Shown here: positions 10,397-38,584 of the stretch, in pieces | How the letters are laid out: each line of letters begins with the position of its first letter | Numbering within the stretch: position 1 is the first letter of the stretch | From: Bacteroidales bacterium | GTDB lineage: Bacteria > Bacteroidota > Bacteroidia > Bacteroidales > VadinHA17 | Length of the DNA stretch: 64,000 nt | Assembly (NCBI GenBank): GCA_003142255.1 | Contig: PLLO01000012.1 | Location: 62,001-126,000 of the forward strand | Reading direction: 5' to 3' | Notes under the pieces: generated by a model | Seen by the model: only the letters and a program-made list of their open reading frames with translations | The model's database searches: none | Told to the model about the DNA's origin: nothing | Program-made: the position numbers and the translations under genes

Positions 10397-13300
10397 ATGG
10401 TAAAAAAACCTTCGGAAGGCATTTTGTTTCTGAAATGCTTTAAAAAAATCATGCTAATCTCTGGAGTTTGCAGCCTTCTGCTGGTTGGCGGAACATTCCG
10501 GGTATTGGCATCCTCTGGATTAAATTCCTATTCATCAGGTGATTTACAACAGAGGAATGTAACCGGTAAAGTAGTTGATGCCAACAATAACCCAATGGCA
10601 GGTGTCAATGTTCTGGAAAAAGGTACGGCAAATGGTGTACTTACTGGCGTTGATGGCGAATTCTCAATTTCGGTCTCCTCGCCAAATTCAGTTTTGTTAT
10701 TTTCATTCATTGGCTACGAATCAAAAGAAGTCGTGGCCGGTTCCCAGTCCGTTGTTAATGTATCACTTTCTGAGAGCGTTACCGGATTGAATGAGGTTGT
10801 TGTAATCGGTTATGGTACTGTGAAGAAAAGTGATGTAACAGGATCCGTGGCATCAATCAACTCAACCAAACTACAGACAGTTCAGGTACCAAATGTGATC
10901 GCCCAGTTAAAAGGTCAGACTGCCGGCGTCGACATTCAAAGTAACAGTTCAAATCCCGGTTCAAGCGGACAAATAAGAATCAGGGGTGAAAGATCACTTA
11001 CCGGAAGCAACGATCCGCTTCTTGTCGTTGACGGAATACCTTATAGCGGCAGTATCAATGACCTTAACCCAAGTGATATTGTTAGCGTCGATATTCTGAA
11101 GGATGCCTCAGCAACAGCTATTTATGGTTTCAGGGGATCTAACGGAGTAATTCTTATTTCAACAAAAAGAGGTAAATCAGGCAAGTCAATTATAACCCTT
11201 GACTCATATTATGGGATTACAAATGTTATGAGCGATCTGAGGCTTTTCACTGGTCAGGAACTGGCAGATTTTAAAGCCCAGGCCGCTTTGGGAAACACAG
11301 TAACCCCAGGCACCAATCCTTATGGCCTTACTACCGTGGAACAAACTGGTTTGACTAATGGTGTCAATACCGACTGGCAGAAGCTTATTTTCCAGCCTGG
11401 TTTTACTTCGGATCAGGAACTGGGTGTTACCGGTGGAAATGACGCTACACAGTTTTCCCTGGGAGTCGGATACTATAACGAAACAGGAATAATTCCTCAT
11501 CAGAAATATGAAAGGTATAATCTTCGTTCAACCATTGATCACCAGATAAGCAAGAAAATAAAAGTTGGACTGAATTCACTTAATACCCTGAATTTCACAA
11601 ATGTTGCCGGCAACCCTGTCGGAACAATGATGGCCATGAGCCCCCTGGTTTCACCTTACAACGCCGACGGAACTATCAACACATACCCGATGACCGGTAA
11701 CATAGATCAGATGGTTTATGCTAACCCGCTGACAATTAATCTCACCAATTCAATTTATAACAACAGCAGGAGGATCAGAACGTTCAACAGCCTTTATGGT
11801 GAATGGAGCATACTCGATTACCTTAAGTACAGGATAAATGTAGGGCTTGACTTTTCGCAGACTCAGGCCGGATCATATTACGGTCCCAATACAGTATTCA
11901 ATACCGGGCAGACACTTGCCCAGGCTACATCAAATGTAACCAACACTGAAACTTATACCTATACAATTGAGCACTTGCTTATTTTTGATAAAACCTTTGG
12001 GAAGCATCATATAGGCTTTACCGGACTGTTCAGTATTCAGGATGATCATGCAAGAGCCAGCGGCTTTAACGGACTCGGCATGCCGGCAGACCAGATCCAG
12101 AATACCAACATGGCATACGCAAGCACCTATACTTCCAGCGGGAACTATCTGACGGAACGCGGTACAGTATCATACATGGGTCGTATAAACTATGGATACT
12201 CCAATCGTTACCTTGCCACAGTGTCACTAAGAACTGATGGATCCTCAGTATTGTCTCCGGGGAATAAGTACTTTACTTACCCGGCAGTAGCCCTCGCATG
12301 GAATGCTATGAATGAGGAGTTTATGAAAGGTTTTCATTTTCTTTCCAACCTTAAGTTAAGAGCCGGCTGGGGTAAGACAGCAAACGCCGGTATCAACCCC
12401 TATTCAACGCTTGGTGCGTTAAGCACAGTTAACTATAACTTTGGTACTACAGGACTTACAGGCTTTCTGGTAACTAGTCTTCCAAACCCATCTTTGAGAT
12501 GGGAATCTACTTCATCATTTAACGGAGGACTTGATTTTGGTTTTCTGAAAAACAGGATCACAGGTAGCATAGATGTCTACAATCAGCGGACACGTGATAT
12601 TCTTCTGAGCCAGAGTCTCCCGCGAAGCAACGGAGCCAGTTCAATAATAGTGAATGCAGGAAAGACAAAAGGAGAAGGTATTGAAATCAACCTGAGCACA
12701 GTGAATGTCGAACTGAGCAACAGCTTCAGATGGACGACTGACTTTATGTTTAGTATAAACAAAACCCAGATAGTTGCTCTTCAGGATACAAGCCTTAAGA
12801 TGGATATAGGTAACGGCTGGTTTGTAGGACAACCTCTGACTGTAATTTATGACCTCAAGAAGATCGGGATATGGCAGACCTCAGATGCCACAGACATGGC
12901 AGCCCAGATTACTCCGGTACAATTTGTAGGGCAGATCAGGGTTCAGGATCTCAATGGAGACCATAAGATAAATGCAGCCGACAGGCAGATCCTTGGGAAC
13001 TTTCAGCCAAAATGGATCGGAAGTTTCACGACTAACTTCGAATTCAAGGGGATCGAGCTTTCTGCTATGGCATACGCCAGAATGGGAATGATGGTAGCTG
13101 TTCCGTATCTGACTGCAGATGGTGGCGCCAACGGGTTCCCGATGTTCATGCAGAGCAGGCGCAACCAGCTCAAGATTGATTACTGGACTCCAACAAACCC
13201 GACCAATGCATTCCCAAGGCCGGATGCAAGCAGGGACAATCCGTTATACGGATCCACATTGGGATATGTTGACGGTTCTTTCATAAAAGTCAGAACGATA

Positions 13301-13570
13301 AGTCTGTCTTATACATTCCCGGTCTCACTTATTCAAAAAGCCAAAATCGACTTTTTGAAGGTATACGTGAACATCCTTAACCCTTGCGTTCTTTATTCAC
13401 CTTTTGTCAAGGCAGGATATGGACCTGATCCTGAAGGAAACGGATATGGCGGTACAGTTGGTTCGCCTTCTGCAGGTGGCAGTACTTCAATACCAAGCCG
13501 TGCTATTACTGTCAATGCCAACACTCCGGCAACCCGGCAGATCAATTTTGGCTTAAGCCTGAAATTTTAA
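10397..13570 (+). CDS. SusC/RagA TonB-linked outer-membrane transporter (xylan locus)
   Basis: 1057 residues. After a signal region (hydrophobic IMLISGVCSLLLVGG) comes a carboxypeptidase-regulatory-like beta-sandwich (about residues 54-125: VTGKVVDANNNPMAGVNVLE), then the conserved EVVVIGYGT at 133-141 that marks the start of the SusC plug. The plug has LLVVDGIPYSG and DILKDASATAIYGFRGSNGV, followed by a 22-strand-type barrel ending in an aromatic residue (LSLKF). It imports oligosaccharides across the outer membrane with TonB energy and pairs with the SusD 19 bp downstream. The operator upstream and the gene content to 37 kb point to xylo- or glucuronoxylo-oligosaccharides as cargo; that substrate is inferred. 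Confidence 0.95.
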   Translation: MVKKPSEGILFLKCFKKIMLISGVCSLLLVGGTFRVLASSGLNSYSSGDLQQRNVTGKVVDANNNPMAGVNVLEKGTANGVLTGVDGEFSISVSSPNSVLLFSFIGYESKEVVAGSQSVVNVSLSESVTGLNEVVVIGYGTVKKSDVTGSVASINSTKLQTVQVPNVIAQLKGQTAGVDIQSNSSNPGSSGQIRIRGERSLTGSNDPLLVVDGIPYSGSINDLNPSDIVSVDILKDASATAIYGFRGSNGVILISTKRGKSGKSIITLDSYYGITNVMSDLRLFTGQELADFKAQAALGNTVTPGTNPYGLTTVEQTGLTNGVNTDWQKLIFQPGFTSDQELGVTGGNDATQFSLGVGYYNETGIIPHQKYERYNLRSTIDHQISKKIKVGLNSLNTLNFTNVAGNPVGTMMAMSPLVSPYNADGTINTYPMTGNIDQMVYANPLTINLTNSIYNNSRRIRTFNSLYGEWSILDYLKYRINVGLDFSQTQAGSYYGPNTVFNTGQTLAQATSNVTNTETYTYTIEHLLIFDKTFGKHHIGFTGLFSIQDDHARASGFNGLGMPADQIQNTNMAYASTYTSSGNYLTERGTVSYMGRINYGYSNRYLATVSLRTDGSSVLSPGNKYFTYPAVALAWNAMNEEFMKGFHFLSNLKLRAGWGKTANAGINPYSTLGALSTVNYNFGTTGLTGFLVTSLPNPSLRWESTSSFNGGLDFGFLKNRITGSIDVYNQRTRDILLSQSLPRSNGASSIIVNAGKTKGEGIEINLSTVNVELSNSFRWTTDFMFSINKTQIVALQDTSLKMDIGNGWFVGQPLTVIYDLKKIGIWQTSDATDMAAQITPVQFVGQIRVQDLNGDHKINAADRQILGNFQPKWIGSFTTNFEFKGIELSAMAYARMGMMVAVPYLTADGGANGFPMFMQSRRNQLKIDYWTPTNPTNAFPRPDASRDNPLYGSTLGYVDGSFIKVRTISLSYTFPVSLIQKAKIDFLKVYVNILNPCVLYSPFVKAGYGPDPEGNGYGGTVGSPSAGGSTSIPSRAITVNANTPATRQINFGLSLKF

Positions 13571-13589
13571 TTGTTAAAAAAATTACAAT

Positions 13590-15341
13590 ATGAAAAAACA
13601 TTATATTCAAAAAGCTGCATGCCTGTTTATTGCAGTTGTTTTATTTGCAGTTTCAGGTTGTCAGAAACTTCTTGAGGAAAACCCCCGATCTTCAATTGCA
13701 CCGACATTTTTTGAAACGCCGGCTGGAATTCTGGGCGGGATAGCAGGTGTATATTCAGATTTAAGAAACCTCTGGGGAACAGAAGGATTCGGCGCAACAT
13801 GCGTTGCAGGTACTGACGAGCATAAAATGGGAGGAAGTGCCAGCGGCCAGACTTTCTATACCTACAACGGGCTTGATTTGAATGGCATGTCAGGATTATG
13901 GTCCATTGCCTATCAGGACATAAATACTTTGAACGGGGTAATAGAAAAGGCTCCGGCTGTAAGCCTGGATGACAATACAAGAAAGGTCTATGTTGCTCAG
14001 GCAAAATTCCTGCGTGCATTTTACTATTTTCACCTGGCAGAGACATTCGGCGATGTTCCTTTGCATATGACATTCCTTACGACTGCTTCAACAGCTGACT
14101 CACGCCAGCCGATTGCTGATGTATATGATTCCGTAATCGTGGATCTGAATGCTGCCATAGCAGGTTTGCCGGCAACGCCGACAGCTCCTTTCGGAGGGAA
14201 AGCAGCAACAATCGCTGCCGCAAAATTCCTTCTTGCAAAGGTATACCTGACAAGAGGCTGGTCAACTGCCGCACAATCAGGCGATTTTACCCAGGCATAT
14301 ACCATTGCAAATGACCTTATTACAAACAAGGCAACCTATGGGCTCGACCTTTGGCAGGATTATGCTGATGTCAACAAGGACGGGAATGATTATGGCAAGG
14401 AAGCGATCTTTTGTATCGACCATAACAATGACGCAAAATTTGGCGACTGGGTATCACAGGCATCCGGCGGCAAAATAAACATAATGGCAAGCCTTTACAG
14501 GCCAAATTATCCTACAATGAATGCAAACTTCCCGGCATCCGGCGGAAGTACTGTAATGGTAAGGGATGTGGCTAACGGGCGCCCATTTATTCGTACAACA
14601 CCTAATACCGGTTATATTTATGGCCAGGCATTTGCTGAACGAGTCAATGATGCGAGGTATGATAAATCGTTCCAGACCGTATGGATATGTAATACAGCAG
14701 CAAATGTTACTACACCAAGAGGTACTCTCGTGGTAGGAAAAGATACCGCAATCTGGATGCCTCCTTATGAAGTTTCGGCTTCGCGTGTTGCTAATTTCAA
14801 GGGTATAATTCTGACACCTACCGGAGCAAACGGAGCAAATAAATATACTAATGTTTTCTTCCCGGCTCTCAGCAAATTCAACGATCCTTCAAGAGCTAAC
14901 ATGAATGACCCTTCAGACAGACCTCTGGTTATCATGAGATTTGCCGAGGTATACCTGATAGCTGCTGAGGCAGCATTTAAAGGAGGAGGCACGCTACAGA
15001 ATGCTGCAGATATGATAAACGTTGTCAGGACAAGAGCTGCATACAGGGCAAGTTACCCCACTGGACAAACTCTAGCCAGCTCTGTTGCTGCAATGCAGAT
15101 CACTTCTGGCCAGGTGACTCTCGACTTTATTCTTGACGAAAGAAGCAGGGAACTTTATGGTGAACTTGTAAGGTGGTGGGACCTTGTCAGAACCCAGTCA
15201 CTGGTACAGAGAGTAACACTTTGGAATACTGAAGCTTCCCCGTACATAAAGGACTATCATGTACTGCGCCCAATTCCACAGACATCTGAGATAGACCTTG
15301 TTACATCAGGACCAAAATTTCCACAGAATACAGGTTATTAA
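13590..15341 (+). CDS. SusD/RagB surface glycan-binding lipoprotein (xylan locus)
   Basis: 583 residues. The N-terminus ends in a lipobox (AVSGC, Cys24), so the protein is lipid-anchored at the cell surface. The helical TPR-type core is visible in segments such as AQAKFLRAFYYFHLAETFGDVP and, near the C-terminus, EVYLIAAEAAF, LDERSRELYGELVRWWDL and the closing YHVLRPIPQTSEIDL, all usual for SusD-like proteins. It caps the SusC barrel and binds the incoming glycan. It is co-transcribed with susC and is followed by a strong hairpin terminator at 15375-15415, so the transcript seems to end here. Confidence 0.95.
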   Translation: MKKHYIQKAACLFIAVVLFAVSGCQKLLEENPRSSIAPTFFETPAGILGGIAGVYSDLRNLWGTEGFGATCVAGTDEHKMGGSASGQTFYTYNGLDLNGMSGLWSIAYQDINTLNGVIEKAPAVSLDDNTRKVYVAQAKFLRAFYYFHLAETFGDVPLHMTFLTTASTADSRQPIADVYDSVIVDLNAAIAGLPATPTAPFGGKAATIAAAKFLLAKVYLTRGWSTAAQSGDFTQAYTIANDLITNKATYGLDLWQDYADVNKDGNDYGKEAIFCIDHNNDAKFGDWVSQASGGKINIMASLYRPNYPTMNANFPASGGSTVMVRDVANGRPFIRTTPNTGYIYGQAFAERVNDARYDKSFQTVWICNTAANVTTPRGTLVVGKDTAIWMPPYEVSASRVANFKGIILTPTGANGANKYTNVFFPALSKFNDPSRANMNDPSDRPLVIMRFAEVYLIAAEAAFKGGGTLQNAADMINVVRTRAAYRASYPTGQTLASSVAAMQITSGQVTLDFILDERSRELYGELVRWWDLVRTQSLVQRVTLWNTEASPYIKDYHVLRPIPQTSEIDLVTSGPKFPQNTGY

Positions 15342-15591: not shown

Positions 15592-16260
15592 ATGAGCGAT
15601 ATTCTTAAAATGCTTTCCTATTGCGTGGAGGTTGGGAAAATGGATAAGTTGTCTCCATACCCTCCCAATATGAGAGGTGAAGATGGCGCTGATGAGCTGG
15701 CAAAAAAGGCTCTTGACAGTGGCGCGAAACCGGGTGACATCCTCGAAAAGGCTCTTATACCCGCCATGGCCATCGTAGGAAACAGGTTCAGCAAAAAGGA
15801 AATATATGTTCCTCAGATGCTGATGGCTGCAAAGGCCATGAACAGTGCTATGAAGCATTTGAAGCCATTTTTCCAGTCGGGAGAGACGAAACGCAAGGGT
15901 AAATTCATAATAGGTACCGTTTCAGGTGACATGCATGATATTGGGAAGAACCTGGTTGCAATGATGATTGAGGGCGGCGGTTGGGAAGTGATCGATCTTG
16001 GTGTAGACGTCAGCACTGAAAAGTTCCTGAAATCGATCAGTGAAAATCCTGACGCTGTAATAGGACTCTCAGCTTTACTGACGACTACTATGGAGAATAT
16101 GAAAAAGACAGTTGAGGCGATAAAGGGGAAATACTCAGACTCAAAAATCCTTGTAGGAGGTGCACCGTTAACGATGGATTACTGCAAACTTATCGGAGCT
16201 GATTTTTATTCTCCCGATCCGCAGGGAGCAGTCAACTATCTCAACAAACTGGTTTCATAA
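15592..16260 (+). CDS. Corrinoid (B12-binding) methyl-carrier protein
   Basis: 222 residues, the normal size of stand-alone corrinoid proteins of methyltransferase systems (MtaC/MttC type). Residues about 1-95 form the helical cap domain, and about 103-222 the Rossmann-like cobalamin domain. The base-off signature is complete: D113-x-H115-x-x-G118 in GDMHDIGKN, S160-x-L162 in GLSALL, and the GG at 189-190 in VGGAP. His115 would ligate cobalt. It carries a methyl group between a substrate methyltransferase and the pterin methyltransferase encoded next (16418). It is the first gene of a four-gene operon. No substrate-specific methyltransferase is encoded beside it. Confidence 0.93.
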   Translation: MSDILKMLSYCVEVGKMDKLSPYPPNMRGEDGADELAKKALDSGAKPGDILEKALIPAMAIVGNRFSKKEIYVPQMLMAAKAMNSAMKHLKPFFQSGETKRKGKFIIGTVSGDMHDIGKNLVAMMIEGGGWEVIDLGVDVSTEKFLKSISENPDAVIGLSALLTTTMENMKKTVEAIKGKYSDSKILVGGAPLTMDYCKLIGADFYSPDPQGAVNYLNKLVS

Positions 16261-16308
16261 CTTAACTTGATAAGAGTTATAAACGATTTGATATTATATA
16301 AAAAATAA

Positions 16309-16402
16309 CCCCCTTTCTTATTTCCCCCAAGGGGGAAAAGATTAGTTCCTTCCCTCGTGGGGGAAAGCCTGCCCCGCTTCGGCGGGGGTTAGGAAGGGGG
16401 TA
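16309..16402. repeat. C/G-rich palindromic intergenic element, copy A
   Basis: The stretch opens with CCCCCTTTCTTATTTCCCCC, contains several CCCCC and GGGGG runs that can pair, and closes with TTAGGAAGGGGG. It shares its design (CCCCCTTTC start, GTGGGGGAAAG or GTGGGGGAAGG core, GGAAG...GGG end) with copies D at 32959 and F at 48534. It sits between two genes of one operon. Confidence 0.75.
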
Positions 16403-16417
16403 AGAATAACTGGAAAA

Positions 16418-17257
16418 ATGAAGACAATCCTCAAAGGCAGATTAAAAGAAGTAATAATTGATACCGAAGGGCCGGTTATTATAATTGGTGAGAGCATTAA
16501 TCCTACTCGCAGAAAAAAGCTGGTCTCTACATTACAGGAAGGCAATTTTGATTTTGTCCTGGAGCTGGCAGAATCACAGATCAGGGCTGGAGCCGATGTG
16601 CTTGATGTAAATGTGGGCTTCCCCGGTGTGGATGATGTTAAGCTTCTGCCTGAGACTGTAAGAAGACTGCAGGAAAGATTTGATGTTCCGTTATGTCTTG
16701 ATTCGCCAAACCCCAGAGCAATTGAAGCTGCACTTAAAGCAGCAGTCGGGAAATGCCTTATAAATTCAGTAAACGGAGAAGAAGCTTCGTTGAAAAATCT
16801 TCTTCCGCTTGCCAAAGAATACGGAGCTGCGATAATAGGTCTCTGCATGGATGATGACGGGATAACTCATGATCCTGAAAAAAGAGTTTTAATTGCGGAA
16901 AAAATAATTGAGAGAGCTGTAAAGACCGGCATCAAACGGGAAGATGTAGTTATTGATCCTCTTGCCATGGCAGTGAGCGCTGATCCCAATGCTTGTCTTG
17001 TGACTCTCGAAACTATAAGGCTCATTCATCAGAAGCTGGGACACAATATCACCCAGGGAGCAAGCAACATTTCTTTCGGGCTGCCCGACAGGGAGTCACT
17101 GAATTCCGCTTTTATGACATTGGCAATTTATAACGGTCTTACATGCCCCATCGCCAATCCCGAGAAAATCACAGCTGCTGTCCGTGCTACCGACCTGGTG
17201 CTTGGAAGGGATGATTATGCCGTCAGGTTTGTCGAATACTTTCAAAGCCGTCAATAG
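16418..17257 (+). CDS. Methyltetrahydrofolate:corrinoid methyltransferase (pterin-binding)
   Basis: 279 residues, matching the stand-alone pterin-binding TIM barrels (AcsE/MtgA/MtvA type) and the pterin domain of MetH. Readable family features are IIGESINPTRR at residues about 22-32, GADVLDVNVGFPG near 66-78, PLCLDSPNPRAIEAAL near 91-106, LINSVNGEE near 113-121 and the terminal QGASNISFGLPDR segment near 212-224. It moves a methyl group between tetrahydrofolate and the corrinoid protein encoded upstream. It is part of the corrinoid operon; the spacing of 157 bp to the first gene is filled by repeat copy A. Direction (making or consuming methyl-THF) cannot be read from sequence. Confidence 0.92.
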   Translation: MKTILKGRLKEVIIDTEGPVIIIGESINPTRRKKLVSTLQEGNFDFVLELAESQIRAGADVLDVNVGFPGVDDVKLLPETVRRLQERFDVPLCLDSPNPRAIEAALKAAVGKCLINSVNGEEASLKNLLPLAKEYGAAIIGLCMDDDGITHDPEKRVLIAEKIIERAVKTGIKREDVVIDPLAMAVSADPNACLVTLETIRLIHQKLGHNITQGASNISFGLPDRESLNSAFMTLAIYNGLTCPIANPEKITAAVRATDLVLGRDDYAVRFVEYFQSRQ

Positions 17258-17288
17258 TTATTAAGTTAAACTACTTTAAAATAATTGA

Positions 17289-18749
17289 ATGTCAGGCATT
17301 AATCCTGCCCGAAGATGGCAGCCCGCTTTTTACCCTTTTAAAAAAGAGAAGTTTTCACGGAGGCTACTGGCTAAGATAGAGCTTTGCGCAAAAGGCCCTC
17401 TCTTTGGATGCCGGATGTGCGGAAACTGTCTGCTTCAGGAGACTGCATTTATCTGCCCCATGGAGTGTCCGAAAGGAATGAGGAACGGCCCTTGCGGCGG
17501 AGTCACTCCTGAAAAAAACTGTTATGTTGATGAGACAAGAAAATGCATCTGGTATGCAATCTATAACAGGTCTCTTAAAACCGGCAGGGAAGAAAAGCTC
17601 CTGGAAGTTCTTCCTCCTCTCGACTGGAGCAAAACAGGCACAGAAACATGGGGTGATATTGTCAGTCAGGTAAGGAAAACAGGTACAAGCTATTTTATCA
17701 AAAGTCTCTTTTCAAGAGATAAGGACAAGAAGGATAAGGCCTGGGATAAGGTTTTCAAAACAGTTCGTCAGCCTGAATGGTGGAATGGAGACTCTGAGTA
17801 TCACAAACCTGCATATAATGAACCGGTATCCGGACTTGAAGCTAAGCTTCGGTCAGGAAAGTTTGTCATTGCAACCGAAATAACTCCCCCGTTAAGCTCA
17901 GGCACCGGAAAGCTTGCAAATGAAATTACCCTTGTAAAGCCTTGGGTATCAGTAATCAACTTCACTGATTCCTCTTCGGCACGACCCAGGATGTCGAGCC
18001 TGGCATGCTGCAAGATTACAGTTGATAATGGCGCCGAGCCCGTACTTCAGATTGCTGCGCGCGATACTACCAGGACTGGATTGCAATCGGCCGTTATGGG
18101 AATTAACAGCCTTGGTATAAAAAATATTCTCTGTGTCACTGGCGATAATCCAAGAATAGGTCCCTCGCCTACAAGTGACATGAATTTTGTCGATCTGGAT
18201 TCTGTCCAGATGTTATGGATTCTGAGGAAGATGAGGGATGAAGGCATTTATCTGGACGGCAGGAAAATGAAAGAACCTCCGAAATATTTCCTTGGAGCCG
18301 CCATCTCGCCGTTATCTATGGACCCTGTTTTGCAGGCAATCCGGGACCAGAAGAAAGTGAATGCCGGAGCTCAGTTCTTCCAGACAAATCTAGTCTTTGA
18401 ACCGGAATTGCTTGATCCATGGCTTGAGCAGCTTGAAAAGAGGGGAGCTCTTGACAAAGTATTTATTCTCCTGGGTGTTACTCCGCTTAAGAGTTATAAA
18501 TTAGCCGAATATCTTCACACCAAAGTTCCAGGTGTCAGACTTCCCCAAAGTGTGCTAAACAGGATGGAGAAAGCGGGGGAAGGAGCTCCTGAAGAGGGAG
18601 TCAGGATAGCACTTGAGATCATCGATAAAGTAAAGAATAAGAAAGGAATAAGCGGCATTCACCTGATGACACTGGGATGGGAAGAAATAGTTCAGAGAAT
18701 TGTGACAGAATCAGGATTATGCCCCCCATCCCCCCTGAAGGGGGGCTAA
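17289..18749 (+). CDS. Methylenetetrahydrofolate reductase with N-terminal zinc/cysteine domain (MetV-MetF fusion)
   Basis: 486 residues. The N-terminal third (residues about 25-95) is the cysteine-rich MTHFR C-terminal-type domain (PF12225-like), with Cys33, 41, 44, 47, 56, 60, 69, 78 and 86, which in acetogens is the separate MetV subunit. From about residue 180 follows the MetF TIM barrel with ATEITPPLSSG, NFTDSSSARPRMS, LCVTGDNPR and a long C-terminal barrel half. It interconverts methylene-THF and methyl-THF and so links the corrinoid pair to the C1 pool. The last roughly ten residues (CPPSPLKGG) are encoded by repeat copy B, which also provides the stop codon, so the natural C-terminus appears to have been replaced. 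Confidence 0.88.
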   Translation: MSGINPARRWQPAFYPFKKEKFSRRLLAKIELCAKGPLFGCRMCGNCLLQETAFICPMECPKGMRNGPCGGVTPEKNCYVDETRKCIWYAIYNRSLKTGREEKLLEVLPPLDWSKTGTETWGDIVSQVRKTGTSYFIKSLFSRDKDKKDKAWDKVFKTVRQPEWWNGDSEYHKPAYNEPVSGLEAKLRSGKFVIATEITPPLSSGTGKLANEITLVKPWVSVINFTDSSSARPRMSSLACCKITVDNGAEPVLQIAARDTTRTGLQSAVMGINSLGIKNILCVTGDNPRIGPSPTSDMNFVDLDSVQMLWILRKMRDEGIYLDGRKMKEPPKYFLGAAISPLSMDPVLQAIRDQKKVNAGAQFFQTNLVFEPELLDPWLEQLEKRGALDKVFILLGVTPLKSYKLAEYLHTKVPGVRLPQSVLNRMEKAGEGAPEEGVRIALEIIDKVKNKKGISGIHLMTLGWEEIVQRIVTESGLCPPSPLKGG

Positions 18750-18790
18750 AACCAGGAATTATTTTAAGTCCCCTTCAGGGGATTTAGGGG
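18722..18790. repeat. C/G-rich palindromic intergenic element, copy B
   Basis: Contains CCCCCCTGAAGGGGGGCT, which is also found in copy E at 34302, and then a second arm pair AGTCCCCTTCAGGGGATTTAG. It overlaps the end of the MTHFR-like gene and fills most of the gap to the next gene. Confidence 0.75.
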
Positions 18791-18830
18791 CAAAATAAAA
18801 AGATCAGAATTTAATGTATATTTCAAGTAC

Positions 18831-19538
18831 ATGATTTATAAAACTTTTCAATTCGATTTCAAGGATCTGAAGCTCACAGTCTCACAGATTGAAAAGGTAT
18901 TGGGTTACACTGAAGAAAATTCAGAAGCTCATTTCAGTGAACTTATCGGAAAAGCTCTGAAGGAAGCCGCTGAAGTATGCTCAATAAAAGCTGAATACAG
19001 GATATTTGATGATATCTTATTCAATGATCCTGATAAAACAGTTTCAGTCAATAACATCACTTTCGACATAAAAAAAATAATATATGGCCAGCTGAAGAAA
19101 TCTGAATCTGCAGCTCTTTTCCTGTGCACTGCCGGCGAAGAGATAGGGAAAATAAGCAGACGGGCAATGAAGTCCGGCGATCTCCTGGAGGGTTATATTT
19201 ATGATGTTGTCGGAAGTGAAATAGTTGAAGCGGCTGCTGACCTTATGCAAAACGATCTTGAAAAATCGATGGCTTCATCAGGCACGAAAATAACAAACCG
19301 TTTCAGTCCCGGGTATTGTGGGTGGGATGTCTCTGAACAGCATAAGCTATTTCAGCTTCTTCCCGGAACTTATTGCGGCATAAGGCTTTCAGCTTCAGCA
19401 TTGATGGATCCGGAGAAATCGATCAGCGGAATGATCGGTATTGGAAAGAATGTAAGACATTTGCCTTATACATGCAATTTATGCGATATGAAAGATTGCA
19501 TATACAGGAATCTGAGGTCAGAAAAGAAAAAGAATTAA
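18831..19538 (+). CDS. MetH activation-domain-like protein (corrinoid reactivation)
   Basis: 235 residues, corresponding to the C-terminal S-adenosylmethionine-binding reactivation domain of cobalamin-dependent methionine synthase as a separate polypeptide. Family-like segments are ALFLCTAGEEIGK (near 100-112), DVVGSEIVEAAADLM (near 126-140), RFSPGYCGWDVSEQHKLF (near 161-178) and SASALMDPEKSISGMIGIG. A C-terminal CNLCDMKDC cluster (Cys215, Cys218, Cys223) is common in stand-alone members. It would help return inactive cob(II)alamin to the active state by reductive methylation. It ends the corrinoid operon; a terminator follows at 19597. Identity is good, but the partner corrinoid protein is assumed to be the one at 15592. 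Confidence 0.85.
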   Translation: MIYKTFQFDFKDLKLTVSQIEKVLGYTEENSEAHFSELIGKALKEAAEVCSIKAEYRIFDDILFNDPDKTVSVNNITFDIKKIIYGQLKKSESAALFLCTAGEEIGKISRRAMKSGDLLEGYIYDVVGSEIVEAAADLMQNDLEKSMASSGTKITNRFSPGYCGWDVSEQHKLFQLLPGTYCGIRLSASALMDPEKSISGMIGIGKNVRHLPYTCNLCDMKDCIYRNLRSEKKKN

Positions 19539-19661: not shown

Positions 19662-21890
19662 ATGAAAACGATAATTAAAAACTTTAATCTCATAAGATTA
19701 TTTGTTCTTCTGCAATTAATCTCCGGGACCTTTGTCTTATCGGCTCAGCAAACTGTTGAATTTCCTTATCAGAACCCGGCTTTGTCAGTCGAAGAGAGGG
19801 TGAATGACCTTGTCGGGAGAATGACAACTGACGAAAAGATAAGCCAGATGATGAATGCCGCGCCTGCAATAGACCGACTTGGCATCCCAGCGTATAACTG
19901 GTGGAACGAATGCCTTCACGGTGTTGCCAGGGCAGGCCTTGCCACTTGCTTTCCGCAGGCAATCGGGTTAGGTGCAACGTGGGACCAGAACCTGATCTTC
20001 AGGGTTTCTACAACAATTTCTGATGAAGCTCGCGCAAAGCATCATGAGTTTGTCAGGAACGGCTCAAGGAAAATATACCAGGGTCTTACATTCTGGTCAC
20101 CTAATGTCAATATATTCAGAGATCCGCGCTGGGGCAGGGGACAGGAGACTTATGGCGAAGATCCGTTTCTCACCGGGAAAATTGCAGTTCAGTTTGTAAA
20201 AGGACTTCAGGGCGACGATCCGAAATACTTTAAAACCATCGCCACACTGAAGCATTTTGCTGTTCACAGTGGCCCGGAACCTGAGCGGCACTCATTTGAT
20301 GCCATTACTGATGAAAGGGATTTCAGGGATACTTACCTCCCTCAGTTCGAAATGGGGATTAAGGAAGGCAAGGCTTATTCAGTGATGTGCGCCTATAATA
20401 GCTATAAGGGCGAAGCTTGTTGCGGAAGCAGCAACCTCCTGAACGGAATTCTCCGCACGGAATGGGGTTTTGACGGTTATGTAGTATCAGATTGCGGCGC
20501 AATCAGCGATATCTACAACGGCCATAAGGTAGTTGCCACAGCCGCTGAAGCTGCTGCACTCGGCGTTAAATCCGGAACCGACCTTGAATGTGCTTCAGTC
20601 TACCGGAATTTGAAAGAATCACTTGAGAAGAACCTGATAACCATACAGGATATTGACATTGCATTAAAGAGACTCTTCACTGCAAGGTTCAGGCTTGGGA
20701 TGTTTGATCCGCCTGAAATGGTAAAATATTCAAAGATACCGTACAGTGTGGTGGATTGCGAGCAAAACAAGGCTCTTGCCAGGGAGACAGCACTTAAATC
20801 AATTGTTCTGCTCAAGAACAAAAATAACATCCTTCCGCTTAAGAAAAGTGTCGGTACTGTTGCCGTCATAGGTCCCAATTCCGATCAGATTTTTGTGCTT
20901 CTTGGTAATTATAACGGGACTCCTTCCGATCCGATCACTCCTCTGCGTGGCATTAAGGAAAAACTTGCAGGAGTTTCTGAGGTTCTATATGCCCAGGGCT
21001 GTCCATGGGCTGCCGGGATGCCGGGACAGAAGAGTCCGGAAGAGCTTAAGGCAGAAGCTCTTGAAGTTGCCGGGAAGGCAAATGTCATAATAATGTGCAT
21101 GGGCATCACTCCAAAGCTGGAGGGCGAAGAAATGAGAGTCACTGTTGATGGGTTCAAAGGAGGTGACAGGGTGAGGATTGACCTTCCGGATGTTCAGCAG
21201 GACCTGATAAAGGCTATTTACGCTCTCGGCAAACCGGTCATCCTGGTACTTCTCAATGGCAGTGCCCTGGCTGTTAACTGGGAGAAGGATAACATACCTG
21301 CAATACTTGAAACATGGTACGGCGGCCAGGCAGCAGGACAGGCTCTTGCCGATGTAATCTTCGGGGACTATAACCCGGGTGGACGGCTTCCTGTAACATT
21401 CTATAAATCAGTCAACGATCTTCCTTCCTTTGAGGATTATAATATGAAAAACAGGACGTACAGGTATTTTACCGGAGAACCACTCTTTCCATTCGGATTC
21501 GGACTTAGCTATACTACTTTTAGTTATAAAAAACTGAAGGTTAACGAAACTGTTAATATGGGTGATTCAGTCAAAGTTGCCGTTAATGTGAAGAATACCG
21601 GGAAACTTGCCGGAGACGAGGTTGTTGAGCTTTATTTGTCAGACCTTACAGCCGATGTTCCTGTTCCTATCCATGCTCTCAAAGGCTTTACCAGGATCCA
21701 CCTTAACCCCGGTGAGACAAAAAGTGTAGTTCTTACACTTTCTCCTGATGCATTTTCAATAATTGACAACGATAATCAGAGAAAAGTAAAACCTGGTGAT
21801 TTTGAGATTTCTGTCGGCGGTCATCAGCCAGAAAATAAAACTGTAAAAAATGAACCCGGCATCCTGAAGAAAGTGATAAAGCTTATATGA
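19662..21890 (+). CDS. GH3 beta-glycosidase, probable beta-xylosidase, exported
   Basis: 742 residues with a signal peptide ending near LSAQQ (residues 26-30). The order is the GH3 N-terminal barrel (about 35-330), the alpha/beta sandwich (about 375-600) and a fibronectin-III-like C-terminal domain (about 645-720). The nucleophile is Asp277 in GYVVSDCGAI. The style of the substrate segments (WWNECLHGVAR, WSPNVNIFRDPRWGRGQETYGEDP) is that of the beta-xylosidase/alpha-arabinofuranosidase branch rather than of beta-glucosidases. It would release xylose from xylo-oligosaccharides in the periplasm, which fits xylA/xylB in the same locus. The downstream CE15 gene starts 46 bp later on the same strand. 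Confidence 0.9.
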   Translation: MKTIIKNFNLIRLFVLLQLISGTFVLSAQQTVEFPYQNPALSVEERVNDLVGRMTTDEKISQMMNAAPAIDRLGIPAYNWWNECLHGVARAGLATCFPQAIGLGATWDQNLIFRVSTTISDEARAKHHEFVRNGSRKIYQGLTFWSPNVNIFRDPRWGRGQETYGEDPFLTGKIAVQFVKGLQGDDPKYFKTIATLKHFAVHSGPEPERHSFDAITDERDFRDTYLPQFEMGIKEGKAYSVMCAYNSYKGEACCGSSNLLNGILRTEWGFDGYVVSDCGAISDIYNGHKVVATAAEAAALGVKSGTDLECASVYRNLKESLEKNLITIQDIDIALKRLFTARFRLGMFDPPEMVKYSKIPYSVVDCEQNKALARETALKSIVLLKNKNNILPLKKSVGTVAVIGPNSDQIFVLLGNYNGTPSDPITPLRGIKEKLAGVSEVLYAQGCPWAAGMPGQKSPEELKAEALEVAGKANVIIMCMGITPKLEGEEMRVTVDGFKGGDRVRIDLPDVQQDLIKAIYALGKPVILVLLNGSALAVNWEKDNIPAILETWYGGQAAGQALADVIFGDYNPGGRLPVTFYKSVNDLPSFEDYNMKNRTYRYFTGEPLFPFGFGLSYTTFSYKKLKVNETVNMGDSVKVAVNVKNTGKLAGDEVVELYLSDLTADVPVPIHALKGFTRIHLNPGETKSVVLTLSPDAFSIIDNDNQRKVKPGDFEISVGGHQPENKTVKNEPGILKKVIKLI

Positions 21891-21936: not shown

Positions 21937-23325
21937 TTGATGAAAAAACTATATAGCATTATTTGTTTTGCCATTCTCTTTAGCACGATAACATTCGGGC
22001 AGTTTTCACGGCAGGCCCAGGACAGTATCCGTCAGCTCACACAAAAAGATTATAAGGATATGTGTGACCTTATCGGGATAAAGGCAACAAGGCCGGGACC
22101 GTCGGGTACACCAACCGCACCCAATGCAGCGAATACCGATGAGGCAAAAGCAACACAGTATACCTCGCTTCCCGATCCGCTCATTCTGAATAACGGGAAA
22201 AAGGTAAAGTCGGCAAAGGTGTGGTGGGGAAAGCGCCGCCCTGAGATAAAGGAATATTTTGACAGGGAGATTTATGGACGTGTCCCTGCCAGCGTTCCGA
22301 AAGTTACATGGGAGGTGGTAAGTGTCACAAATGATACTGTTGGGAAAATACCGGTAGTTACCAAAAAACTGTCAGGACATGTCGATAACTCCTTATATCC
22401 TTCAATAAATGTAAACATTGACCTCACACTTGCAACACCTGCATCGGAAAAAGGTCCAATACCTGTGATCATGGAATTCGGTTTTATTTTCCCGACAGGT
22501 GCCCGACCTGCAGCTGCACTGGCTAATCGTCAGCAGGCGACCGCTCCCAGGCCTCAGATGCCGGCCGGTCCGACATGGCAGCAGCAGGTTCTTGAAGCAG
22601 GCTGGGGCTATGCAATAATTGCCCCCGGAAGCATCCAGGCCGATAATGGAGCAGGACTGAGAAGCGGAATCATTGGCCTTGTGAACAAGGGAGGTCCCCG
22701 TAAGCCAGACGACTGGGGTTCACTCAGGGCTTGGGCCTGGGGAGCTGACAGGGCAATGGATTACTTTGAAACTGACAAAGCTGTTGATGCAAAGAAAGTC
22801 GGGATTGAAGGACTTTCGAGATATGGCAAGGCAGCTATCGTTACTATGGCATATGATGAAAGGTTTGCAATAGGATTTATTGGTTCTTCAGGAGCTGGAG
22901 GGACAAAGCTTTACCGTCGTATATTCGGCGAACAGGTTGAAAATCTTGCAGGATCAGGTGAATACCACTGGTTCGCTGGCAATTTTATTAAATATGCTGC
23001 AGATCCCTTGACTCAGAACGATCTTCCCGTCGATTCTCATGAGCTCGTAGCTATGTGTGCTCCCCGTCCGGTATTTATCAGTTCAGGATCCCCGACTAAC
23101 GGAGATGCATGGGTCGATGGTAAGGGAATGTTCCTCGCTGGTGCTTATGCCAGTCCAGTCTATGAACTGCTTGGCAAGAAGGGAATGGGGACTACTGAAA
23201 TGCCTGCGATTGAATCAGGATTAATGGATGGAGATGTTGCTTTCAGGCAGCATTCAGGAGGGCATACAACCGGACCGAACTGGCCGTTCTTTATCCAGTT
23301 TGCAAAACGTTACCTGGATAAATAA
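21937..23325 (+). CDS. CE15 glucuronoyl esterase, exported
   Basis: 462 residues with a signal peptide (MMKKLYSIICFAILFSTITFGQ). The CE15 signature GLSRYGKAA carries the nucleophile Ser294, and His443 in the C-terminal HTTGPNWP is the expected catalytic base. WWGKRRPEIKEYFDREIYGR near 96-115 is also characteristic. CE15 enzymes hydrolyse the ester between 4-O-methyl-glucuronate side chains of xylan and lignin alcohols (family knowledge). A low-complexity Pro/Ala/Thr-rich insert lies near residues 52-72 and again near 188-212. Its place among two alpha-glucuronidase families and a GH3 supports a lignin-linked glucuronoxylan target. Confidence 0.9.
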   Translation: MMKKLYSIICFAILFSTITFGQFSRQAQDSIRQLTQKDYKDMCDLIGIKATRPGPSGTPTAPNAANTDEAKATQYTSLPDPLILNNGKKVKSAKVWWGKRRPEIKEYFDREIYGRVPASVPKVTWEVVSVTNDTVGKIPVVTKKLSGHVDNSLYPSINVNIDLTLATPASEKGPIPVIMEFGFIFPTGARPAAALANRQQATAPRPQMPAGPTWQQQVLEAGWGYAIIAPGSIQADNGAGLRSGIIGLVNKGGPRKPDDWGSLRAWAWGADRAMDYFETDKAVDAKKVGIEGLSRYGKAAIVTMAYDERFAIGFIGSSGAGGTKLYRRIFGEQVENLAGSGEYHWFAGNFIKYAADPLTQNDLPVDSHELVAMCAPRPVFISSGSPTNGDAWVDGKGMFLAGAYASPVYELLGKKGMGTTEMPAIESGLMDGDVAFRQHSGGHTTGPNWPFFIQFAKRYLDK

Positions 23326-23480: not shown

Positions 23481-24386
23481 CTACTTTCCGTTCTTATATC
23501 TTTCGAACTGTCCTGCTATATCAGCTTCAGTGCTTGTTCCTGAATGGACCAGGACGCGGTAACGGAGGAGGAGCGTAGTTCCTTTCTGCATGAAAGTCTC
23601 TTCACCATTCTGTGGCCAGTACATCGGGGTAGGTGAAATAAATCCATAATCGCGCGTGAACCATGGCGAAGGGTACCAGGGATTCGAGGGATGCTGCATA
23701 ATTGCAAGTCCTTCGGTTGCATTACCTCTTTTCCCGAAATAATCGATCCAGGGAGAGGCTTTTCCGAAGGTTTCCTTTTCACCTTTTGCTCCTTCGGCAT
23801 TTATCATTGTGCCTCCGTTTTGCACGGAGAGATCAGCAGCCATCCTTGCGCTGAAAAGAGAATGGTTTGTCTTTTTGATATGAACATCAATAAGCATTTC
23901 CATAGTTATTTCGGCATCAATCTGAGTCATTGTTGCCGATGGGACCGTAATGGTGAATTTTCTTATGTCCTTAACAGGAGAGAGTGCTCCCGGACGGCTC
24001 CATATGCATTCATCAGTTATGATCAATGTATCGCCGCCCTCCTTTAGTATCTGGGCATTTACTGAAATGATCCTTCCACGGTCAAGACCCTCCTGCCAGT
24101 AGTTCCCTTCGTTAACCTGGTCACAGCCAAAGAAGAGTGAGCTGTGATGAGGCCATATGGCATTTCTCATAGATGTGACGGATCCTCCAGAAACCGGACC
24201 ATTTACCGGGAAAAAGAACGGGTACTTTTCATCTTCTGAAAAGATATAGCTGGTAAAATATTTCCCGTCTATTGTTACATTGATCTTTGAGCCGACTTTT
24301 ACTGCAGTTATCTTGGTTGCCTGTAAGGGCATCGAGATAATGGCTGCTCCCAGAAGAAGCAGCCATGATTTAAATATATTCCTCAT
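23481..24386 (-). CDS. PmoA-like (DUF6807) family protein, exported
   Basis: 301 residues with a signal peptide (LLLLGAAIISMPLQA). The motifs FFFPVNGPVSGG, NAIWPHHSSLFFGCDQVNEGNYW and the closing LLLRYRVLVHSG are those of the family labelled PmoA/DUF6807 in Bacteroidota and Planctomycetes. The name comes from a database label; nothing here resembles the membrane methane mono-oxygenase subunit, so the biochemical role is unknown. The His-rich WPHHSS segment might bind metal. It starts 12 bp after the Tat-exported Gfo/Idh gene and is the last gene of the GH115 operon, so a joint oxidative step on a uronic-acid or sugar product is plausible but unproven. Confidence 0.75.
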   Translation of the reverse strand: MRNIFKSWLLLLGAAIISMPLQATKITAVKVGSKINVTIDGKYFTSYIFSEDEKYPFFFPVNGPVSGGSVTSMRNAIWPHHSSLFFGCDQVNEGNYWQEGLDRGRIISVNAQILKEGGDTLIITDECIWSRPGALSPVKDIRKFTITVPSATMTQIDAEITMEMLIDVHIKKTNHSLFSARMAADLSVQNGGTMINAEGAKGEKETFGKASPWIDYFGKRGNATEGLAIMQHPSNPWYPSPWFTRDYGFISPTPMYWPQNGEETFMQKGTTLLLRYRVLVHSGTSTEADIAGQFERYKNGK

Positions 24387-24398
24387 TATAATGCTGGT

Positions 24399-25811
24399 TT
24401 ACATATGGATATAGGTTGTTCCGTACGGTTTACGCTGCGGTCTTGAAATCATGCTGTTTGCCTCCTTGTCGCCGACAAATTTTTCAGTATCCGGATCCCA
24501 GGTCAGCTTCCTGCCGATCTTCATCGCGATATGTGTTACAAGGCATACTGTGCAGGCACGGTGCCCTATTTCGACAGGAGAGATCGGCTCTTTGCGCGAT
24601 TTGATGCAATCGAGCCAGTTTCCCTGCTGTGAATCGCTATGGTAGAGGTGTATTTCGTTGGCACCTATTACCGAGGTCAGGATCTTAGGATCGCTTGCCG
24701 AGAGAGCCGGATTACTCTGGCCCTGAGGAATCGGGTCGCTTTCAGTTGCGCGGTAATTGCCACGGGTAACGAATATCCATCCTTCTGTACCTTCATACCT
24801 GACACCATTGGGATAGCCTCCGCTTGTGAGCATTGTGATACCATTTTTGTATTCAGCCTTGGCCATGAAATCTCCGTGAACATTCCAAAGACCATGTTTC
24901 GGGAAATCTGCAACTGCTTCGATTGAAATTGGGCCGGTAAGTTCAGTATCCATACCCCATGCTGCAGAGTCGAAATGATGCTGTCCCCAGCCTGTTATCA
25001 TCCCGGCGCCAAACTGCTCGCACCTAAGCCATCCCGGGCGGTCAGTGATGCTGTTCTGCGGATGGACCCTCATTTCGGTATAGTAAACCTCCGGTGTTGA
25101 TCCCAGCCACATATCATAGTTGAGATTTGCCGGAGTCGGCATTTCAGGTGCATCTGGTCCGGCCGGGTCTCCCGGAAGACCGATCTTTACAGTTTCAAGC
25201 TTTCCGATCCTGCCATTCCTGACGAGCTCGGCGGCAACCCTGAACTGTGCGCTTGAGCGCTGCTGAGTTCCCACCTGCAGGATAACCTTCTTGCGTTTGA
25301 TAACATCGCTTAAGAGCCTTCCTTCAGCAATTGTAAGAGAGGTCGGCTTTTCAAGGTAAATGTCCTTGCCCGCCAGAGCTGCCTCAATTGCCGGCTGTGA
25401 GTGCCAGTGATCAGGTGTCGTTATCATAACGGCATCAATGGATTTGTCATTGAGAAGCTCTTTATAGTCTCCATGCATTTTTATATTTGCATAATTGCTG
25501 TTACCGGTTTTACTGGAGTAGAAGCTTTCTATCCGCTGCTTGGCGAGTTCCATTCTCTTTGAATCGACATCGGCAACCGCCACTACCATGGCATTATCGA
25601 ATCTCATCGTGGCGAAAATGTCACCGCTGCCCTGCCTCCCGTTACCGATCCATCCGATGTTGATCCTGTCGCTGGGAGGATTCTTTCCGATAGCACTCGC
25701 AGAGATGATTGTCGGGAAACCTTTTAAAGCGACTGCAGAAAAAAGAGCTGCCTTTACCGAGGTGTCGACAAATTGTCTCCTTGAAATAGGTTGATTTTTA
25801 GATTTTTGCAT
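24399..25811 (-). CDS. Tat-exported Gfo/Idh/MocA oxidoreductase (GH109-like branch)
   Basis: 470 residues. ISRRQFVDTSVKAALFSAVA at the N-terminus is a twin-arginine signal, meaning export of a folded, cofactor-loaded protein. The Rossmann motif INIGWIGNGRQGSGD follows near residues 51-65, then DAVMITTPDHWHSQPAIEAALAG and IYLEKPTSL (EKP motif) near 130-160. This domain order is shared by exported oxidoreductases and by GH109, which uses bound NAD for a redox-assisted glycosidase mechanism (family knowledge). It lies 25 bp downstream of GH115 and 12 bp upstream of the PmoA-like gene in one operon. The substrate is unknown; a link with glucuronoxylan breakdown is inferred from context. Confidence 0.85.
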   Translation of the reverse strand: MQKSKNQPISRRQFVDTSVKAALFSAVALKGFPTIISASAIGKNPPSDRINIGWIGNGRQGSGDIFATMRFDNAMVVAVADVDSKRMELAKQRIESFYSSKTGNSNYANIKMHGDYKELLNDKSIDAVMITTPDHWHSQPAIEAALAGKDIYLEKPTSLTIAEGRLLSDVIKRKKVILQVGTQQRSSAQFRVAAELVRNGRIGKLETVKIGLPGDPAGPDAPEMPTPANLNYDMWLGSTPEVYYTEMRVHPQNSITDRPGWLRCEQFGAGMITGWGQHHFDSAAWGMDTELTGPISIEAVADFPKHGLWNVHGDFMAKAEYKNGITMLTSGGYPNGVRYEGTEGWIFVTRGNYRATESDPIPQGQSNPALSASDPKILTSVIGANEIHLYHSDSQQGNWLDCIKSRKEPISPVEIGHRACTVCLVTHIAMKIGRKLTWDPDTEKFVGDKEANSMISRPQRKPYGTTYIHM

Positions 25812-32185: not shown

Positions 32186-32923
32186 ATGAAAAAGATAGCA
32201 ATTGTCACTGGAGGAGGATCAGGAATCGGGCTTGCCATAGCCCGCAAATTCGTAAAGAATGAGATCCATACGATAATTGTCGGTCGCGATAGTGCGAAGC
32301 TGAAGGAAGCTTGCGCAACCCTTGGAAAACTCTCGGACTGGTTTTTATGCGATCTGACGAAGCTTGAAGATATTCCGGAATTGGTACAGAAAATAATTGA
32401 TAAATACGGAAGGATAGATATCCTGGTGAATAATGCCGGTATGCATCTTAAAAAAGGAATGGCTGAAGTTTCCGATGAGGAGTTCCAGAAAGTGATACTG
32501 ACAAACCAGACATCCGTTTTCAGCCTTACAAGAAGTGTAGCCGGGTTCATGCAGGAGCAGGAATCCGGAGCAGTTCTGAATATAAGCTCTATGGCTTCGA
32601 TTTATGGGATCCCTTATGTAATCGCATATACTGCTTCAAAAGCTGCCATCGAGGGCATGACGCGTGCAATGGCTGTTGAGCTCTCTCCTTTGGGAATAAG
32701 GGTGAATTGCCTCGCACCTGGTTTTATCAGAACCAACATGTCGTCGCTTGCGCTCGATAAGGACCCTGAACGGGAAAAGAAAGTGTTGTCAAGGACTCCT
32801 ATGGGAAGACTTGGAAAACCCGAAGAGGTTGCTGATGCAGCACTCTTCCTGGTTTCTGATTCAGCTTCATATATAACAGGTGTCGTGCTTCCTGTGGATG
32901 GCGGAAATTCAATAGGATTTTAA
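32186..32923 (+). CDS. SDR oxidoreductase, candidate fructuronate reductase
   Basis: 245 residues, classical SDR length. TGGGSGIG at 8-15 binds NAD(P), NNAG lies at 82-85, and the catalytic pair Tyr148 and Lys152 is in YTASK. ITGVVLPVDGG near the end is standard. No signal peptide is present, so it is cytosolic. Between an alpha-glucuronidase and mannonate dehydratase, the expected missing step is reduction of D-fructuronate to D-mannonate, done by SDR-type enzymes in several bacteria that lack the usual UxuB. That job is inferred from place only; KduD-like or gluconate dehydrogenase activity is possible. Confidence 0.8.
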   Translation: MKKIAIVTGGGSGIGLAIARKFVKNEIHTIIVGRDSAKLKEACATLGKLSDWFLCDLTKLEDIPELVQKIIDKYGRIDILVNNAGMHLKKGMAEVSDEEFQKVILTNQTSVFSLTRSVAGFMQEQESGAVLNISSMASIYGIPYVIAYTASKAAIEGMTRAMAVELSPLGIRVNCLAPGFIRTNMSSLALDKDPEREKKVLSRTPMGRLGKPEEVADAALFLVSDSASYITGVVLPVDGGNSIGF

Positions 32924-35921: not shown

Positions 35922-36008
35922 TTGTCCGCCTGCTGTTCTTTGCTAAAACTTTCCGTAATTTGCGATTACAAAAATATATATAACGTATTAATTTTAAAAA
36001 TATCCACT

Positions 36009-38511: not shown

Positions 38512-38584
<73 letters not shown>

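Follow-up and report, generated by a model that had tools for sequence, protein, structure and literature searches.

The 64-kb window analysed here is a stretch of contig PLLO01000012.1 from a 3.73-Mb Bacteroidales genome (98% complete), and at 15592..19538 it carries four consecutive genes for a corrinoid carrier, a pterin-binding methyltransferase, a fused MetV-MetF reductase and a relative of the activation domain of methionine synthase (MetH). We propose, with a probability of roughly 0.55, that these genes provide a corrinoid-dependent O-demethylase with its carrier, folate and reactivation modules, that its donor enzyme is urod1, a protein of the uroporphyrinogen decarboxylase (UroD) family encoded elsewhere on the contig, that its methyl donor is 4-O-methyl-glucuronate and that MetH-type reactivation takes the place of the activator RACo. 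The initial annotation had wavered between an exploded methionine synthase and an O-demethylation core with its substrate enzyme elsewhere. The latter is now supported by the closest structural relative of the pterin protein, by apparent methyl-oxidation operons in relatives and by a UroD candidate on the same contig. The domain content then described holds, although the glucuronoxylan genes around the operon and the absence of a RACo match had been overlooked.

The four-gene operon and its parts

15592..16260, + strand: stand-alone corrinoid methyl carrier, MtgC/MtbC-like (PF02310, 91.2 bits; PF02607, 69.4 bits)
16418..17257, + strand: methyl-corrinoid:tetrahydrofolate methyltransferase of the AcsE/MtvA type, the pterin protein (Pterin_bind; NF005719, 275.1 bits against a cut-off of 259)
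17289..18749, + strand: fused MetV-MetF methylene-tetrahydrofolate reductase, MetVF (PF12225 (DUF5981) and PF02219 (MTHFR))
18831..19538, + strand: stand-alone MetH-activation-type protein, act, with an SPGYC motif and a C-terminal CxxCx4C (PF02965 (Met_synt_B12), 39.4 bits against a cut-off of 25)

All four open reading frames (ORFs) score above their Pfam cut-offs, and position and Pfam matches alike confirm the row of genes first annotated, with gaps of 157 bp between carrier and pterin protein, 31 bp between pterin protein and MetVF and 81 bp between MetVF and act. The same four genes recur in the same order in a congener, G112, with identities of 74, 71, 62 and 50% for carrier, pterin protein, MetVF and act, and the arrangement is therefore not a matter of chance.

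Two hallmarks of corrinoid O-demethylases are present in the operon, namely a free-standing carrier with the base-off motif DxHxxG (here DMHDIG) and a carrier:folate methyltransferase of the AcsE/MtvA type. The carrier lies nearest to the NCBIfam profiles MtgC and pyl_corrinoid, below the cut-off of both. Since the other four B12-binding matches belong to MetH, methylmalonyl-CoA mutase, a radical SAM protein and a response regulator, it is the only free-standing methyl-corrinoid carrier among the B12-binding matches of the genome. The pterin protein exceeds the cut-off for methyl-tetrahydrofolate:corrinoid protein methyltransferases and falls far below that of the NCBIfam metH profile; its closest PDB relative is 4o0q, which we take to come from a Desulfitobacterium O-demethylase. 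MetVF contains nine cysteines within its first 90 residues, and besides it the genome has one MTHFR match, metF on contig C17.

The pterin protein and MetVF also stand together in two further Bacteroidales genomes. G131 (L222) has, in order, a sugar-type regulator, the carrier, the pterin protein, MetVF, a formate-tetrahydrofolate ligase (Fhs) and a formate transporter, and in G007 (L220) the order formate transporter, Fhs, pterin protein and MetVF is divergent from a carrier and a RACo activator. Judged by gene order, these sets look like modules for methyl oxidation to formate.

Homologues of act were found in 40 of the 295 genomes of the order that were used for all co-occurrence counts, a few weak ones belonging to split MetH. 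The flanks of act were taken, as stretches of 4-20 kb of which some end at contig ends, from all other act genomes except G003, G018 and G282 (36 out of 39); a carrier was present in 17 of these loci and a UroD protein in 17 (including L053). Across 33 aligned rows, the window protein included (of 37 possible, after a length filter), Cys 215, 218 and 223 are conserved in 33, 33 and 32 rows, and within the SPGY motif PG is kept in 33/33 and S in 31/33. The C-terminal end of the genome's own MetH has no CxxCx4C-like motif. A corrinoid-reducing activator had been proposed as something to look for, and the RACo type (PF14574) typical of corrinoid O-demethylases has no match in this 98% complete genome. 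Because of this lack of a RACo match, we infer that act replaces RACo here.

Act also occurs in other company. In L040, L042, L069, L071, L073 and L074 (from G042, G132, G197, G032, G146 and G014), which represent another corrinoid system, it accompanies a carrier, a CobW-type protein and a UroD-family protein that resembles one with a thioredoxin-like C-terminus; the UroD proteins of L040 and L042, the two aligned, keep both zinc-site cysteines and not the histidine. Four act loci of the order (L044, L045, L047 and L065) have UroD proteins of the HxC...C type.

The candidate donor enzyme and the xylan setting

As the initial annotation had noted, the set itself includes no homocysteine or other substrate methyltransferase: PF02574 (homocysteine methyltransferase) matches only the full-length metH on C17, and both UroD-family (PF01208) proteins of the genome, urod1 and one on contig C7, are encoded outside the operon. 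The search for MtaB-, MttB- or MtvB-type proteins that it had advised yielded these two UroD proteins and no match in the genome to MtaB (PF12176) or MttB (PF06253). The urod1 gene lies on the same contig as the operon, about 118 kb away (C14:198900-199934).

The best urod1 matches per genome split between E 1.3e-88 and 3.8e-29, and 19 of the 295 genomes were kept as positive while seven weaker ones were dropped; the orthologues have at least 47% identity, and in G228 the protein is present in pieces. Act occurs in 16/19 urod1 genomes against 24/276 others (Fisher p 4.5e-13), and five of the six genomes with a high-identity pterin protein have urod1. In G006, act and carrier stand divergent to urod1, as do a homocysteine methyltransferase, carrier and act in G247 (L041 9601-12973). 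The G247 arrangement could represent a methionine synthase that needs no folate and draws its methyl groups from a methyl ether.

The surroundings of urod1 were scanned at the 80 top-ranking of its 549 relatives from named genomes. Among these 80, the full-length relative closest to urod1 comes from the Bacteroidales metagenome-assembled genome fen_964 (93% identity). Orthologues of two window genes listed below recur at the scanned loci, the Gfo/Idh/MocA oxidoreductase (Gfo) in 29/80 loci (57-79% identity; one further match of 34% in L189 was excluded) and the DUF6807 protein in 16/80 (63-80%). In G058, one ORF after another encodes act, a UroD protein, a carrier and a Gfo orthologue of 63% identity. 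In addition, 82 loci were examined for gcvP, a one-carbon gene, and in 35 of them urod1 comes after it on the same strand, with gaps of -11 to 245 bp. The pair of Gfo and DUF6807 genes (23481-25811 in the window) thus accompanies urod1 in many Bacteroidales. At the GH115/GH67 loci of urod1 genomes a single Gfo match of 30% identity was found (1/16 loci, L236) and nothing else of the pair, and at those of genomes without a urod1 orthologue none (0/20). The tie of Gfo and DUF6807 is to urod1 and the operon, not to the alpha-glucuronidases, and urod1 itself is tied to the operon by co-occurrence, two adjacent cases and shared neighbours, not by a general operon.

The urod1 family is tight, with a mean column identity of 71% over 34 rows (the second of two alignments, drawn from 34 of the 80 loci). 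H240-N241-D242 and G321-G323 are invariant in 18/18 and 34/34 rows of the alignments. They stand where zinc S-methyltransferases have HxC and GC, G322 taking the place of the cysteine of the zinc-type rows, and urod1 consequently does not have the His-Cys-Cys zinc site of type 1 mlp and coenzyme M (CoM)-type S-methyltransferases. PMC10418091 states for O-methyltransferases of the UroD superfamily that carboxylates or residues that are not ligands stand in for one or both cysteines, a pattern that the urod1 residues appear to fit. A motif filter (HND or GGGMP) recognised the urod1 ORF in 73/80 loci (HND in 73, GGGMP in 51) and was not relied on. Against the hemE equivalog TIGR01464, urod1 scores 52.9 bits, far below the cut-off of 302.95. 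Its phmmer match to the methyltransferase CdmB is weak (9rui, E 0.0014). The second UroD protein (G000:C7:559751-560851; L056 9752-10852) has 366 aa, HSD at the zinc site, the CoM methyltransferase 4ay7 as its sole PDB match and no HemE match. Its gene lies near genes for a melibiase-type glycosidase and a MOFRL (glycerate-kinase-like) protein.

The substrate is suggested by the genes that surround the operon:

10397..15341, + strand: SusC/SusD-type outer-membrane import pair, upstream of the operon (SusD families; SusC named by sequence and place, not by family search)
19662..21890, + strand: GH3 glycosidase, xylosidase-like, next gene on the same strand (PF00933/PF01915; best NCBIfam match Xyl3A xylosidase, 926 bits, below the cut-off of 1250)
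21937..23325, + strand: CE15-type glucuronoyl esterase (PF22244, 104.9 bits)
23481..24386, - strand: DUF6807 protein
24399..25811, - strand: Gfo/Idh/MocA oxidoreductase (nearest NCBIfam profile glycoside 3-dehydrogenase, 118.8 bits, far below the cut-off of 750)
25837..28824, - strand: GH115 alpha-glucuronidase (PF15979, 494.5 bits)
28947..29990, + strand: LacI-type regulator (PF00356/PF13377)
30003..32168, + strand: GH67 alpha-glucuronidase (PF07488, 510.4 bits)
32186..32923, + strand: short-chain dehydrogenase, from its position possibly a fructuronate reductase (PF13561; NCBIfam matches unspecific)
33075..34283, + strand: D-mannonate dehydratase ManD (NF043051, 674.4 bits against a cut-off of 550; PDB D-mannonate dehydratase 4k2s, E 4.7e-168)
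34437..35921, + strand: xylulokinase-like FGGY kinase (TIGR01312, 332.6 bits, below the cut-off of 380)
35922..37331, + strand: xylose isomerase XylA (TIGR02630, 668.7 bits against a cut-off of 533)

With genes for methyl-glucuronoxylan, xylose and glucuronate around it, the operon sits, as far as gene families tell, in a methyl-glucuronoxylan locus. A main side chain of hardwood xylan is 4-O-methyl-glucuronate, and the listed genes include no means of handling its 4-O-methyl group apart from the operon. The link recurs in relatives. In G112 the Gfo, DUF6807 and GH3 orthologues lie within the same 20 kb as the operon, and the ORFs of carrier and pterin protein, of MetVF and act, and of act and GH3 overlap by 4 bp each (taking the first start of every ORF). 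The G112 GH3 protein starts with a signal-like sequence; it also has about 310 extra N-terminal residues (L059 6614-9730), without a Pfam match and aldose-epimerase-like by eye. GH115 or GH67 is present in 12/19 urod1 genomes and in 35/276 others (p 1.5e-6, phylogeny ignored), and in G043 and G248 urod1 has a LacI gene and a block of CE15 and GH115 as its neighbours.

A natural loss points the same way. G294, a 99% complete genome of the same genus as our source, has no match to urod1, GH115 or GH67, and its operon (L060 9889-12133), which adjoins orthologues of the xylulokinase-like kinase and the xylose isomerase, is damaged: internal deletions have taken out the greater part of the carrier and the opening two thirds of the pterin protein, what is left of both forming one ORF, and act is without its middle part, while MetVF is intact. 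Such a joint loss, as read from the assembly, fits a single function for urod1 and the operon; an assembly fault is also possible.

Several observations weigh against the proposed O-demethylase. The urod1 gene is not part of the operon, and within 10 kb of it the best 80 of 549 relatives show carrier, pterin protein or MetVF in 0/80 loci, act in 1/80 and GH115, GH67 or CE15 in 0/80. Act is missing from 3/19 urod1 genomes and turns up in 24 that have no urod1; in G007 it coexists with RACo, which lies beside the carrier. Among the 19 urod1 genomes, GH115 and CE15 stand near urod1 only in G043 and G248, and seven have neither GH115 nor GH67. Two of the 12 counted as positive are themselves doubtful: G112, which keeps the operon and urod1, has only a GH67 remnant of 299/721 residues, and the GH67 of G223 holds a stop codon. 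The Fisher tests ignore phylogeny and many of the genomes are draft or metagenome assemblies. The fold does not separate methyltransferase from decarboxylase either, since the model of a 93%-identical protein (L124; pLDDT 91.2, UroD fold) lies as near to uroporphyrinogen decarboxylase as to 4ay7, a methyltransferase from Methanosarcina (Z 31.5 for either, root-mean-square deviation 2.7). Finally, known corrinoid O-demethylases act on aryl ethers, and an alkyl ether is harder to cleave. Given the seven genomes without alpha-glucuronidases, the remnant in G112 and the stop codon in G223, methyl-glucuronate is our best single guess for this genome only, and is not proven for the urod1 family.

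The same methyl-oxidation module could instead serve another methyl ether, either lignin-type methoxyaromatics freed together with the CE15 products or other O-methyl sugars, through urod1 or the C7 UroD protein. The UroD-family proteins MtvB, OdmB, VdmB and MtoB demethylate methoxyaromatics (PMC13222342, PMC8630106), a second UroD protein does exist here, a sulfatase is present at one urod1 locus of other genomes and SusC at several, and both alpha-glucuronidase families are missing from seven of the 19 urod1 genomes. We nevertheless consider this rather unlikely, as the window, G112 and G294 all tie the operon to xylan and xylose genes, CdmB is matched only weakly by urod1, and the C7 protein finds nothing but 4ay7 in the PDB.

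Methionine synthase and other alternatives

The domain set of the operon matches that of MetH, and the genes could thus form an exploded methionine synthase, making methionine from methyl-tetrahydrofolate with a homocysteine enzyme encoded elsewhere, or a biosynthetic methyl supply from methylene-tetrahydrofolate. The exploded synthase suggested by the initial annotation is not supported, and we consider either variant improbable. A full metH, which it had recommended looking for, was found on C17: the only PF02574 match of the genome lies inside this intact 1216-aa MetH, which has its own activation end, and no lone homocysteine methyltransferase domain occurs. It lies beside metF, a homoserine dehydrogenase gene and further genes of the methionine pathway, the last of these named from their sequence.

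The operon proteins are also distant from it. Identity to the genome's own MetH domains is 30% for the carrier and 31% for the pterin protein, and identity to stand-alone homologues in relatives is 63-74% and 71-76%, respectively. A tree of 16 pterin domains, an analysis equally proposed at the outset, groups the operon protein with the stand-alone homologues of G112, G007, G125 and G131 (96/96); the genome's own MetH pterin domain is on a very long branch apart from it, its exact placement being unsure. Genuinely split MetH looks different. In G003, G018 and G108 of the same order, assigned by position (with domains checked in G018 and G003), the homocysteine, pterin and B12 domains form one ORF and the activation domain is separate. 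The split MetH of the Thermotoga type is represented by 1q7m and 1j6r, both among the PDB matches; its activation domain is separate, as here, but the homocysteine, pterin and B12 domains share one chain.

A dedicated homocysteine methyltransferase linked to the set in all relatives, which together with the lack of any other use of the operon would have refuted the initial annotation, is not what the loci show. A lone copy is found in 5/36 act loci of relatives and in 0/5 of their loci carrying MetVF (L059, L060, L220-L222), while G131 has one on another contig (L070). In relatives, moreover, the pterin/MetVF pair is accompanied by Fhs and the formate transporter. Two points remain in favour of a role in methionine synthesis: in G247 act, carrier, lone homocysteine methyltransferase and urod1 stand side by side, and in Ruegeria the carrier and pterin protein serve methionine synthesis and demethylation both, as stated in PMC12478193.

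The remaining alternatives concern other donors. Methanol freed by a neighbouring pectin methylesterase might be the source of the methyl group, a pectinesterase (PF01095) being encoded at 47483-48523; with no MtaB match in the genome and the pectin genes adjoining a different SusC/D pair, we regard this as very unlikely. Least credible of all is glycine-betaine or methylamine demethylation with an MttB-superfamily donor, for which the carrier's proximity to the MtgC and pyl_corrinoid profiles (below cut-off) would speak and against which stands the lack of any PF06253 match in the genome.

The pectin genes belong to a second glycan region of the window, of pectin/rhamnogalacturonan type (38731-61263), with glycoamylases, SusC/D, pectinesterase, GH127, GH28, GH2 and GH106. 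Between the xylan and pectin regions lies a tRNA gene at 38512-38584 (- strand), the sole Rfam match in the scan. A promoter and terminator scan was uninformative (14 promoter-like sites against 8.6 expected and three terminator-like sites against 4.3 expected).

Proposed pathway and related systems

In the proposed O-demethylation, CE15, GH115 and GH67 would free 4-O-methyl-D-glucuronate from xylan, and urod1 would take the methyl group from a methyl ether, most likely this one, and load it onto the carrier's cob(I)amide. From there the pterin protein would pass it to tetrahydrofolate, and MetVF would oxidise methyl-tetrahydrofolate to methylene-tetrahydrofolate, which could enter the one-carbon pool (glycine/serine, or formate where Fhs is present). 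Carrier oxidised to cob(II)amide would be rescued by act through reductive methylation with S-adenosylmethionine, as in MetH, instead of by ATP-dependent RACo; the C-terminal CxxCx4C of act may carry a metal or an Fe-S electron donor. The freed glucuronate would follow the mannonate dehydratase route, and xylose would be processed by XylA and the XylB-like kinase.

More tentatively, and at somewhat less than even odds, we suggest that anaerobic Bacteroidales carry an oxygen-free corrinoid-dependent demethylase for the sugar methyl ether 4-O-methyl-glucuronate whose parts can be exchanged. The donor enzyme would come from a new UroD clade, urod1, and a single carrier would serve either of two acceptors, folate with MetVF in this genome or homocysteine in G247. 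RACo would be replaced by an S-adenosylmethionine-using, MetH-type reactivase with a CxxCx4C metal site. We speculate that Gfo, which is glycoside-3-dehydrogenase-like, and the DUF6807 protein may first oxidise the sugar beside the ether, which would open the alkyl ether to cleavage and give a sugar counterpart of a phenolate leaving group.

If this is true, oxygen-free demethylation of plant xylan would supply a step so far missing from the degradation of wood and straw. A corrinoid route would connect the degradation of hemicellulose in fens, sediments and digesters with one-carbon metabolism and formate supply. Corrinoid ether cleavage would be widened from aryl to alkyl ethers, and stand-alone MetH-activation proteins would gain a function as reactivases of methyltransferase carriers. 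In the open-licence PMC literature, subscription papers not being covered, we found no account of how anaerobes handle the methyl ether of 4-O-methyl-glucuronate and no paper combining 'methylglucuron', 'corrinoid' and 'methyltransferase'. What would be new is a corrinoid methyltransferase system predicted to draw on a sugar methyl ether and to be reactivated by a MetH-type protein.

Among known systems, MtvABC, OdmABCD and MtoABCD of acetogens and archaea (PMC8630106) share the separate carrier, the methyltransferase to a pterin and the UroD-family donor, and their methyl group enters the folate or methanopterin pathway, as would be the case here; in our system the donor gene lies outside the operon, a MetH-type activation protein is found without a RACo match, and the setting is a Bacteroidales xylan locus. 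MtgBCD with MetF2 of Ruegeria pomeroyi (PMC12478193) resembles it in the free carrier and pterin protein and in its scattered genes, and the second MetF of that organism is thought to oxidise methyl-tetrahydrofolate. There, however, an MttB-type glycine-betaine donor is used and the set serves methionine synthesis too, whereas here MttB has no match in the genome and MetH is present. Type 1 mlp clusters (PMC10418091) likewise combine UroD-family enzymes with a lone carrier, but they have no folate methyltransferase, their UroD proteins are of the His-Cys-Cys type, to which urod1 does not belong, and their activase is Ram/RACE. The cytochrome P450 demethylation of 6-O-methyl-galactose in marine Bacteroidetes (PMC10033563) is similar in that polysaccharide degraders remove a sugar methyl ether; it relies on a monooxygenase and yields formaldehyde, whereas an oxygen-free corrinoid route is predicted here.

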